A DNA stretch of 64,000 nt, taken from an uncultured Shimia sp. Its GTDB lineage: Bacteria > Pseudomonadota > Alphaproteobacteria > Rhodobacterales > Rhodobacteraceae. The notes beneath the pieces were generated by a model, which saw only the letters and a list, made by a program, of their open reading frames with translations, was not told the origin of the DNA and searched no databases. Location: positions 744,001 through 808,000 of the forward strand of contig NZ_CANLRL010000001.1 of the NCBI RefSeq assembly GCF_947493595.1. Reading direction: 5' to 3'. A program made the translations under genes and the position numbers. Positions 7,846 to 10,331 of this stretch are shown one piece after another. The number at the start of each line of letters is the position of its first letter. Position 1 is the first letter of the stretch.

Positions 7846-8382
7846 ATGAGCCTGTTTAAACCTGTTCAGACCTTTTTGACCGGACTGACCGCTGCGGCGG
7901 CAGTTTTCACAGGGTCGGTGAGCCTAGCGGCGGATGAAACCGTATTGCCAACCTCCGGTGACAATGTGGAGACCTATCTGAGTTCAAAATATTGGACGGT
8001 CTTCAAGAACACCACGCGGCAGTCTTGTTTCATCGAGTGGCGCAGTGAAAACAGTGTGGTGCAGGCGGGTCTCACCATGGCGCAGGACGCTGCCTATTTG
8101 GGGGCCTTCGTCAAAGGCGAAGCACCTGCGGACGGGGACCGTGAGATTGCGATTGTGGTGAATGGCAACATTTACTCCGGGACGGCTTCGTCTGTGTCCC
8201 AGACCGTGTCCGGCGGCTTCACCGGTGGCTACATCGTTTTTGACAACCCGCAGTTTGTGGTCGATCTGGAAAAGGCCCGCGAGTTTGTGGCGTTTCAGGG
8301 CTCGCCGCGCGCCGTGACCGTGAAGCTCAAAACACCAAAAAATGCGATTGAACGCGCGCAGGAGTGTATGGCGAAGTTTTGA
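7846..8382 (+). CDS. Secreted protein of unknown function
   Basis: This 178-aa protein has an apparent signal peptide (residues ~1-28, cleavage after VSLA-A) and a soluble remainder. Two cysteines remain after cleavage (TTRQSCFIEW and the C-terminal AQECMAKF), which suggests a disulfide in the periplasm. I do not recognise a named domain. It has some flavour of the invasion-associated IalB proteins but lacks their cysteine spacing. The ATG follows AGGAATAGCCCTC. The 284-bp leader upstream carries the conserved element at 7564-7642 and otherwise nothing I can name. Confidence 0.7.
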   Translation: MSLFKPVQTFLTGLTAAAAVFTGSVSLAADETVLPTSGDNVETYLSSKYWTVFKNTTRQSCFIEWRSENSVVQAGLTMAQDAAYLGAFVKGEAPADGDREIAIVVNGNIYSGTASSVSQTVSGGFTGGYIVFDNPQFVVDLEKAREFVAFQGSPRAVTVKLKTPKNAIERAQECMAKF

Positions 8383-8397: not shown

Positions 8398-8973
8398 TCA
8401 TCTGAACTTCTGAATGTCGGTGAGATCGATCAAAACGGAGTGTCGGTTGTCATCAAACCGAGTGGGCACAACTTGTAAGTCGTGCTCGCTTGGTCCTTTT
8501 TTGACGCGGCCCCATAGATCAAAATGCGAGCCGCGACAGGGATCAAAAAAGCCGCCAAAATCCCCCGCATTGGCCAAGGTGACGCAGCCGATGCCCCCCA
8601 TATCCACCGGGCTAAGCACCAGCCATTCGAGGTAGGTGTATTGCTCGGGGTCCATATCCGCTTCGAGTGATCCGTCCTGCAAGCTCTCCAGTATGTCGTC
8701 ATACGCAAAGCGGGGATCCCACTGTGTCAGCGCAGTTGCCATTTGTGGCAGGCTGCGCCGCCAGATTACCACGGGTTTCCCGTTAAAGCCGCTGAAAGCC
8801 GTGTCTCCCGGCGCCATGTCGATGACGGATATATGGTGCAAGTTGGGGTTGGTTTGCGCCGTCACATCTGTGGAGGGGGCCGTGCTGCCCGCCAAATAGT
8901 AGAGCCCAGTCGCCACTGTCGCAAACAGCCACCCTGCGGTGAGGTAATAGAGCGCGTTGTTTTTGTTGATCAT
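8398..8973 (-). CDS. Rieske-fold protein lacking all [2Fe-2S] ligands (PetA paralogue)
   Basis: This 191-aa protein follows the bc1 Rieske protein (PetA) throughout. The N-terminal membrane anchor is LYYLTAGWLFATVATGLYYL, then STDVTAQTN, GKPVVIWRRS and EWLVLSP. The cluster-binding fold ends AGDFGGFFDPCRGSHFD with GRVKKGP. The canonical boxes CTHLGC and CPCHGSH are changed. Ligand Cys1 is Met125 (or Asp124 if a gap is placed differently), His1 is Gly127, Cys3 is Asp144 and His2 is Arg147. The two cysteines that form the family's disulfide are kept (Cys130 and Cys146). It therefore cannot hold a Rieske cluster. It is not next to petBC, and its role is unknown. Confidence 0.8.
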   Translation of the reverse strand: MINKNNALYYLTAGWLFATVATGLYYLAGSTAPSTDVTAQTNPNLHHISVIDMAPGDTAFSGFNGKPVVIWRRSLPQMATALTQWDPRFAYDDILESLQDGSLEADMDPEQYTYLEWLVLSPVDMGGIGCVTLANAGDFGGFFDPCRGSHFDLWGRVKKGPSEHDLQVVPTRFDDNRHSVLIDLTDIQKFR

Positions 8974-9179: not shown

Positions 9180-10331
9180 ATGAGTTTTTCACGTCGGAAT
9201 TTTCTGGTGGGGTTGTCGTCATTGGCACTGGCGGCCTGTCAGGGCACGTCGACCACGCCGTCGCGGCAGACGGCATCGATTGCCCAAGGGTTGCCGGTGG
9301 ATTTGCGCCCCACGCCTAACGGTGCCTATGATGCTTGGGTAGCAAGCTTTCGTGGGCGGGCGGCAAGCGCGGGGATCAGTGAGACCACGCTAAACGCAGC
9401 GTTTCGCAACACCGGGTATTTGCCGGGGGTGATCAAGCGCGATCGCAATCAGACCGAGTTTACTCGGACGCTGGAGGATTATCTGTCGATTGCCGCGTCT
9501 GATGAACGGATTGCCAAAGGCAAGGCGGCATTCGCGCGGCATGGCAGCACGCTGCGCAATCTGGAGCAAAGCTATGGTGTGGATGCGGAGATCATCTGTG
9601 CGATCTGGGGGCTGGAGAGCTATTACGGGGAGCGCAAAGGCGACATTCCGGTGATCTCGGCCACTTCGACGCTGGCCTTTGATGGGCGGCGGGGGAGTTT
9701 TTATGAGAAGCAGCTGATCGCGGCGCTGAAGATTTTGCAGAATGGCGACACTACGGTGGATCGCATGACCGGTAGCTGGGCCGGGGCGATGGGGCACACG
9801 CAGTTTATTCCCACGAGTTATCAAGCCTTTGCGGTGGATTACACCGGCGACGGGCGGCGGGATATCTGGTCTGATGATCCGTCCGATGCTTTGGCCTCCA
9901 CGGCGGCCTATTTGCAGCGCAATGGCTGGACACGTGGTGTGTCCTGGGGGCGGGAGCTACGCCCGGGCGAGAGCGCGGGGCGGGTGATCCAGCCGCAGGC
10001 CGGTGGCCCGCGGTTTGGCGTGAGTGGGAACTTCTCGGCGATCAAGCGTTATAACAACTCGGACAGTTACGCGATTGGCGTTGGGTATCTGGCGGATCGG
10101 ATTGGGGGTGGCGGGCCTTTGCGGACCGCGTTCCCGCCGGATCAGTATGGGCTCACCAAGGACGACCGGATTGCCTTGCAGTCTCGTTTGACAGCGCGGG
10201 GATTTGACACCGGTGGGGCGGATGGCGTTCTGGGTCCGAAGTCGCGCGCAGCCATTGCGGATTATCAGCGCAGTCGCGGGCTTGAGCCGACGGGCGATCC
10301 GTCTCAGGCATTGCTGGCTTCATTGGCTTGA
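9180..10331 (+). CDS. Lytic murein transglycosylase, MltB family, with peptidoglycan-binding domain
   Basis: This 383-aa enzyme cleaves the MurNAc-GlcNAc bond to give 1,6-anhydro ends. The N-terminus has a twin-arginine-like SRRNFLVGL stretch and a lipobox (LALAAC, Cys20), so it is probably a lipoprotein. The MltB catalytic domain covers ~45-310, with catalytic Glu146 in WGLESYYG and the conserved SWAGAMGHTQFIPTSY. Residues ~325-383 form a peptidoglycan_binding_1 domain (LQSRLTARGFDTGGADGVLG). The start at 9180 follows AAAAAGAGGCAGTTGGT. Confidence 0.92.
   Translation: MSFSRRNFLVGLSSLALAACQGTSTTPSRQTASIAQGLPVDLRPTPNGAYDAWVASFRGRAASAGISETTLNAAFRNTGYLPGVIKRDRNQTEFTRTLEDYLSIAASDERIAKGKAAFARHGSTLRNLEQSYGVDAEIICAIWGLESYYGERKGDIPVISATSTLAFDGRRGSFYEKQLIAALKILQNGDTTVDRMTGSWAGAMGHTQFIPTSYQAFAVDYTGDGRRDIWSDDPSDALASTAAYLQRNGWTRGVSWGRELRPGESAGRVIQPQAGGPRFGVSGNFSAIKRYNNSDSYAIGVGYLADRIGGGGPLRTAFPPDQYGLTKDDRIALQSRLTARGFDTGGADGVLGPKSRAAIADYQRSRGLEPTGDPSQALLASLA

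Follow-up and report, generated by a model that had tools for sequence, protein, structure and literature searches.

Identification of a PetA-like protein without cluster ligands

The window, a 64,000-nucleotide stretch of the genome of an uncultured Shimia sp. (contig NZ_CANLRL010000001.1, positions 744,001 to 808,000), contains a gene for a paralog of PetA, the Rieske subunit of cytochrome bc1. We compared its predicted product (the window protein) to 61 distinct intact PetA proteins among the fetched loci, a set that favours the best matches of each search and was chosen by the pattern C-x-H-x-G-C / C-x-C-H, so that 61 of 61 have the boxes. Box I, C-T-H-L-G-C in intact PetA, reads D124-M-G-G-I-G-C130 in the window protein, and box II, C-P-C-H-G-S-H-Y-D in intact PetA, reads D144-P-C-R-G-S-H-F-D. 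As the preliminary description had claimed from the open reading frame (ORF), all four [2Fe-2S] ligand positions are substituted (the first is Met125 or Asp124, as the box I alignment is ambiguous by one residue) and the disulfide cysteines Cys130 and Cys146 are both present. The features of the gene are as follows.

8398..8973, minus strand: ligand-less PetA-like Rieske paralog gene (ORF with ATG start, 191 amino acids, stop codon included)
8956..8973, minus strand: N-terminus MINKNN, replacing the twin-arginine motif RRDF of intact PetA (motif counts across the intact and ligand-less sets)
8884..8964, minus strand: membrane-anchor helix, residues 4-30, more hydrophobic than that of intact PetA (helix predicted by AlphaFold2, AF2, and hydrophobicity comparison)
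8809..8877, minus strand: neck, residues 33-55, with P33 and D36 retained, three residues longer than in PetA (alignment)
8584..8604, minus strand: former cluster box I, residues 124-130, DMGGIGC, with the Cys and His ligands gone and Cys130 retained (alignments)
8518..8544, minus strand: former cluster box II, residues 144-152, DPCRGSHFD, with Asp144 and Arg147 at ligand positions and Cys146 retained (alignments)
8512..8514, minus strand: Trp154, invariant in the 10 Cys-keeping members of the ligand-less family (see below) and Ser in 43 of 61 intact PetA (alignment)
8401..8427, minus strand: C-terminal extension, residues 183-191, past the usual end of PetA (alignment)

Homology of the window protein to bc1 Rieske subunits is not due to chance, since a phmmer search of Protein Data Bank sequences gave E = 1.9e-19 with bc1 Rieske chains as the top rows. 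The score against the PetA model TIGR01416 was 56 bits (E = 4.9e-15; 55.5 bits in a second run), under the curated cut-off of 97.4 bits, and no Pfam family was matched at E up to 1. The AF2 prediction has the same fold as PetA, and residues 4-30 form its sole helix longer than 11 residues. The predicted structure thus combines the Rieske fold with the N-terminal anchor helix by which a bc1 Rieske subunit is recognised. The protein also resembles PetA in its P-x-x-D neck motif, disulfide cysteines and overall length. It differs in lacking the four ligands and the twin arginine, and in its longer neck, more hydrophobic anchor, sub-cut-off score and C-terminal addition; the addition, about 9 residues, is a gap in 59-61 of the 61 intact PetA, and its D183 is found in 10/10 Cys-keeping members. 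The earlier statement that the whole bc1 Rieske architecture was kept, anchor included, therefore holds for fold, N-terminal helix and homology, but not for the neck (three residues added), the twin arginine (lost), the anchor helix (rebuilt) or the C-terminus. A viral structure library held no match at E <= 0.001, and a promoter and terminator scan found nothing.

Ligand-less homologues form a small Roseobacter-group family

Searches were made at several taxonomic levels, with at most 8 first-look candidates per genome scored in the alignment searches. The gene is present in 3 of the 25 genomes of the genus (the window genome, G000, and G015 and G021). Among the best 30 loci from a draw of 394 genomes of the family, beyond which weaker ligand-less copies could be hidden, at least three matches score well apart from the bulk of PetA, one of them being the window gene itself (G000, G217, G102). 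Of 390 genomes drawn from the order, six pass E 1e-28 (G000, G426, G479, G495, G588, G632). A scan of genome contigs yielded eight loci, in Shimia (two), Tateyamaria, Ruegeria arenilitoris, Ruegeria atlantica, Rhodobacteraceae bacterium Alg231_04, HKCCE2091 and Marinibacterium. With identical sequences merged, 11 carriers from at least five genera were found, 10 of them with open frames; the remaining copy (G495, L082) has a single in-frame stop and comes from the R. atlantica / R. arenilitoris genus group. The family is small and patchy, with members in some marine bacteria of the Roseobacter group.

The nine other open-frame members are 33-90% identical to the window protein. In 10/10 the ligands are absent, with Asp at the third ligand position, and no Cys other than the disulfide pair occurs from the anchor onward. 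Recurrence of the ligand losses and kept cysteines in relatives had been proposed as a check, and it was found in every open-frame member; homologues with intact boxes had been named as contrary evidence, and no such family member turned up.

Two groups of candidate relatives were rejected. At class level, matches were found in 5/385 genomes, and the four besides G000 are ordinary intact PetA. The 79 plasmid records that match are all below 60% identity, and the one inspected, Phaeobacter inhibens pP30_b, carries an intact petA. The plasmid is conjugative, and across the 5.9 kb examined neither petB nor petC is annotated with this ligand-intact petA (L197).

A sister subfamily shares derived residues but not the disulfide

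The window genome encodes a second ligand-less Rieske paralog, without the disulfide pair (contig C2:28862-29419; L035:6863-7423). Open frames of this Cys-less sister subfamily were also found in G020, G024 and G293; the G020 protein has one Cys, located elsewhere than the disulfide positions. In G363 (L118), the subfamily is represented by a three-stop fragment. The kept cysteine pair, whose retention had been read as a sign against random decay, is not essential to the wider family, since it was lost in the sister subfamily. The L035 paralog sits downstream of genes for a histidine kinase and a response regulator, both named by eye.

The invariance of Cys130 and Cys146 in 10/10 members, where they are the sole Cys from the anchor onward, could suggest a thiol-disulfide sensor or switch. 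In ordinary Rieske proteins, however, this disulfide has a structural role, and the sister subfamily manages without it, so we consider a switch very improbable.

The two subfamilies together comprise 14 ligand-less proteins (10 Cys-keeping and 4 Cys-less) and share several marks. Trp71, Phe142, an acid at 144 (Asp/Glu) and Phe151 are present in 14/14, and the equivalents in intact PetA are Arg (59/61), Trp (61/61), Cys (61/61) and Tyr (61/61), respectively. The Tyr replaced by Phe151 is presumably a hydrogen-bond donor that tunes the cluster. From the neck motif to the first head turn, ligand-less proteins have 17 residues (13 proteins) or 19 (L042), compared to 14 in 56/61 intact PetA; among the five exceptions, two reach 15 via a shifted pattern match, two are unmatched and one is mismatched. 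The three extra neck columns (46-48) are gaps in 61/61 intact PetA.

All 10 Cys-keeping members have Asp144 and His150, and Glu and His take their places in 4/4 sister proteins, a pattern that could point to another metal or an unusual cluster bound via these or nearby residues. The other positions speak against this: the box I His ligand is Gly in 9/10 members, the box I Cys position is variable, and the box II His position is R, Q, E or T. His150 is also invariant in intact PetA (61/61), where its equivalent is not a ligand. Binding of another metal is therefore highly unlikely.

Phylogenetic trees separated the two kinds of protein. In a 75-row tree, one branch (support 100/99) splits the 61 intact PetA from the 14 ligand-less proteins. 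A 67-row tree recovered the same split at 100/99; its rows are 23 of the 61 intact PetA, the 14 ligand-less proteins and 30 PetA of other families within the class, taken as the top-scoring loci from 49 matching genomes. Neither tree includes the two pieces of the interrupted copy. In neither tree are the 10 Cys-keeping members one clade, as L042 stands apart; the second tree places it with the Cys-less proteins, with a long-branch warning. The branches are so long that these trees fix the family neither within Rhodobacterales PetA nor outside it. The marks common to both subfamilies and atypical of the 61 intact PetA favour one ancient ligand loss over repeated decay. A single origin is thus supported, but with such branches and no single clade of Cys-keeping members it is not proven.

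The gene is under purifying selection

Rates of nonsynonymous and synonymous change (dN/dS) were estimated by the Nei-Gojobori method (NG86). For the window gene, dN/dS was 0.051/0.181 (0.28) against G015 and 0.155/0.967 (0.16) against G021. Corresponding values were 0.013/0.352 (0.04) and 0.022/0.240 (0.09) for petA, and 0.022/0.342 and 0.169/1.514 for a neighbouring 178-aa gene. In a simple site-count test of the two comparisons, nonsynonymous changes of the window gene were deficient relative to the neutral site ratio (22 vs 21 changes, p = 1.6e-4; 62 vs 71, p = 2e-14). Purifying selection on the gene is real, and weaker than on petA.

These values bear on whether the gene is a decaying petA duplicate caught before loss. 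The patchy distribution, the in-frame stop in G495, the three-stop fragment in G363 and a dN/dS above that of petA would all fit decay, and the two broken copies indicate that the gene is dispensable in some lineages. On the other hand, 10 of 11 Cys-keeping copies are open across at least five genera, family-specific residues are invariant, and the nonsynonymous deficit is significant in both comparisons; we give decay very little credence. The preliminary description had argued for repurposing rather than decay, a view supported by the ligand loss in all 10 open-frame members, the family-specific residues, dN/dS well below 1 and an intact petABC elsewhere in the genome. Decay in relatives, which it had named as evidence to the contrary, is seen in the two broken copies, but not in the ratios, which lie well below neutral. 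The window protein is a real, selected, narrowly distributed bc1 Rieske variant without cluster ligands.

In G000, G015 and G021, the gene lies between the gene for the 178-aa protein and a fructose-bisphosphate aldolase gene. In G020 and G009 the flanking genes adjoin, 145-190 bases apart, with neither the Rieske paralog nor an mltB-like gene between them, an arrangement from which we infer a clean gain or loss of the gene by itself. With a simple gene caller, and with family annotation of neighbours inside the window only, conservation of the neighbourhood was found only within the three Shimia carriers and not across genera.

The export signal differs from that of intact PetA

An RRxF-type signal-anchor motif is present in 60/61 intact PetA (KRDF in the remaining one), and a twin arginine at that place in 0/10 Cys-keeping members. 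In Ruegeria arenilitoris, for example, the ligand-less protein has KKDFLYYATGG and the intact one RRDFLYYATAG. On the Hessa insertion scale (values entered by hand), the best 19-residue sum was 3.71 to 6.21 for the 61 intact PetA, -1.03 to 3.56 for the 10 Cys-keeping members and -2.18 to 0.73 for the 4 Cys-less proteins. These ranges just fail to overlap, the helix of the ligand-less proteins being more hydrophobic than all 61 intact ones. Kyte-Doolittle means (1.25, 1.59 and 2.34, respectively) changed in the same direction; the rows are related, so rank-test p values on hydrophobicity are not independent evidence. For a single-helix Rieske protein, the change would run in the direction expected if the twin-arginine translocation (Tat) pathway were no longer used. 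Together, loss of the twin arginine in 10/10 members and the more hydrophobic helix suggest a Tat-to-Sec switch of the signal-anchor.

Carrier genomes retain an intact cytochrome bc1

The presence of an intact petABC elsewhere in the genome, suggested earlier as a check, was confirmed: petA (216.8 bits), cytochrome b (assigned by eye from its sequence) and cytochrome c1 lie side by side on contig C2 of G000, and the ligand-less gene is not adjacent to petB or petC. Intact PetA above the TIGR01416 cut-off was found in 12/12 examined genomes carrying either ligand-less subfamily, and cytochrome c1 in 12/13, one copy each; the miss is G021, a draft. Second intact PetA copies were also seen in G007, G008 and G217.

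With bc1 present in carriers, the paralog might act as a decoy subunit that replaces PetA in some bc1 dimers or plugs the docking site at the quinol-oxidation (Qo) site, throttling the complex. Although the redox centre is gone, P33, D36 and the fold residues persist, and necks are 3 or more residues longer in 14/14 ligand-less proteins, which would favour parking at cytochrome b; neck-insertion mutants of Rhodobacter capsulatus, as described in an excerpt of PMC4583038, lend this some appeal. However, PetA-like matches occur in non-carriers too (383/394 family genomes), so bc1 is no mark of carriers, the tip residues, Pro loop and anchor helix are changed, and the position of the extra residues within the neck is uncertain. 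We regard a decoy as unlikely. Its most specific form, in which Roseobacters make a natural dead Rieske subunit that is cluster-less, Sec-inserted, enters cytochrome bc1 and parks its longer neck at the quinol-oxidation site, is slightly less probable still; if true, it would be a built-in brake on respiration.

Proposed function of the cofactor-free paralog

The explanation that we favour, with a probability of roughly 0.58, is that the window protein is a cofactor-free, N-terminally anchored PetA paralog that acts as an accessory by binding an inner-membrane partner. Its sequence rules out electron transfer by way of a Rieske cluster. An old PetA paralog would have lost its [2Fe-2S] cluster, probably once, and would afterwards have been kept as a cofactor-free protein with an N-terminal anchor and a Rieske-fold head, presumably in the periplasm. 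With no cluster to insert in the cytoplasm, folded export would no longer have been needed, and a signal-anchor of the Tat type could have given way to one suited to Sec/YidC. A Cys130-Cys146 disulfide, if formed, would hold the empty cluster tip, along with the family-specific Trp71, Phe142, Asp144, Phe151 and Trp154. The most likely mode of action is binding to a partner that lies in or at the inner membrane, with the protein serving as an accessory in assembly, stability or regulation. Ancestry and the kept neck residues make a bc1 role plausible, and cytochrome bc1, decoy version included, may tentatively be named the likeliest single partner; a different partner in the membrane is of about equal likelihood.

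Several observations weigh against this explanation. The anchor helix is rebuilt, and residues that we take to have served in the docking tip and the Pro loop have changed, both of which speak against the protein simply fitting into bc1 as PetA does. The gene has a patchy distribution, with broken copies in some relatives; relative to petA, its dN/dS is 7.6x higher against G015 and 1.7x higher against G021; and the very long branches leave a single origin unproven. With no neighbour conserved across genera, no partner is indicated. Regarding export, 3/4 Cys-less proteins have RR near the start (MRRPN), not in the RRxF form, and the Kyte-Doolittle ranges of the helices overlap.

Relation to known cluster-free Rieske-like proteins

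The NirD-type small subunit of nitrite reductase is a Rieske fold without ligands, which the window protein may resemble in being cluster-free. Unlike the window protein, NirD is a soluble subunit alongside its catalytic partner; the window protein matched no Pfam family, Rieske_2 among them. Cluster-free Rieske-like folds are already known from TEF5/PSB33/LIL8 of green algae and plants, which, in excerpts of PMC12164590 and PMC8003979, has a membrane-anchored, ligand-less Rieske-like domain and affects photosystem II assembly or stability. In the same excerpts it differs from the window protein in its C-terminal anchor helices, stromal side, restriction to the green lineage and photosystem II partner. 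We claim no common ancestry, and cite TEF5/PSB33 as a comparable precedent that may illustrate a binding use of such a domain. Among the best-matching open-licence literature in PubMed Central (PMC), a scope outside which most subscription journals fall, no bacterial bc1-type cluster-free Rieske fold was found; PMC5770400, which names both 'Rieske' and 'Shimia', concerns oxygenases in the part seen, not a bc1-type protein.

The family is a natural experiment in which the cofactor was lost, the export signal went from Tat-like to Sec-like and the protein was kept. Through it one can ask whether cofactor insertion is what ties Rieske proteins to Tat export, and whether dead subunits serve bacteria in tuning bc1.

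Neighbouring genes

Beside the Rieske paralog, at 9180-10331 of the window, is a lytic-transglycosylase-like gene (PF13406). This mltB-like gene is at the site in G000 and G015, and was not found there in G021, G020 or G009. The 178-aa protein is encoded by a convergent gene at 7846-8382; it is apparently exported (judged by eye) and has no Pfam match. Some match to it was found in 21/25 genomes of the genus, with at least 59% identity in 15.
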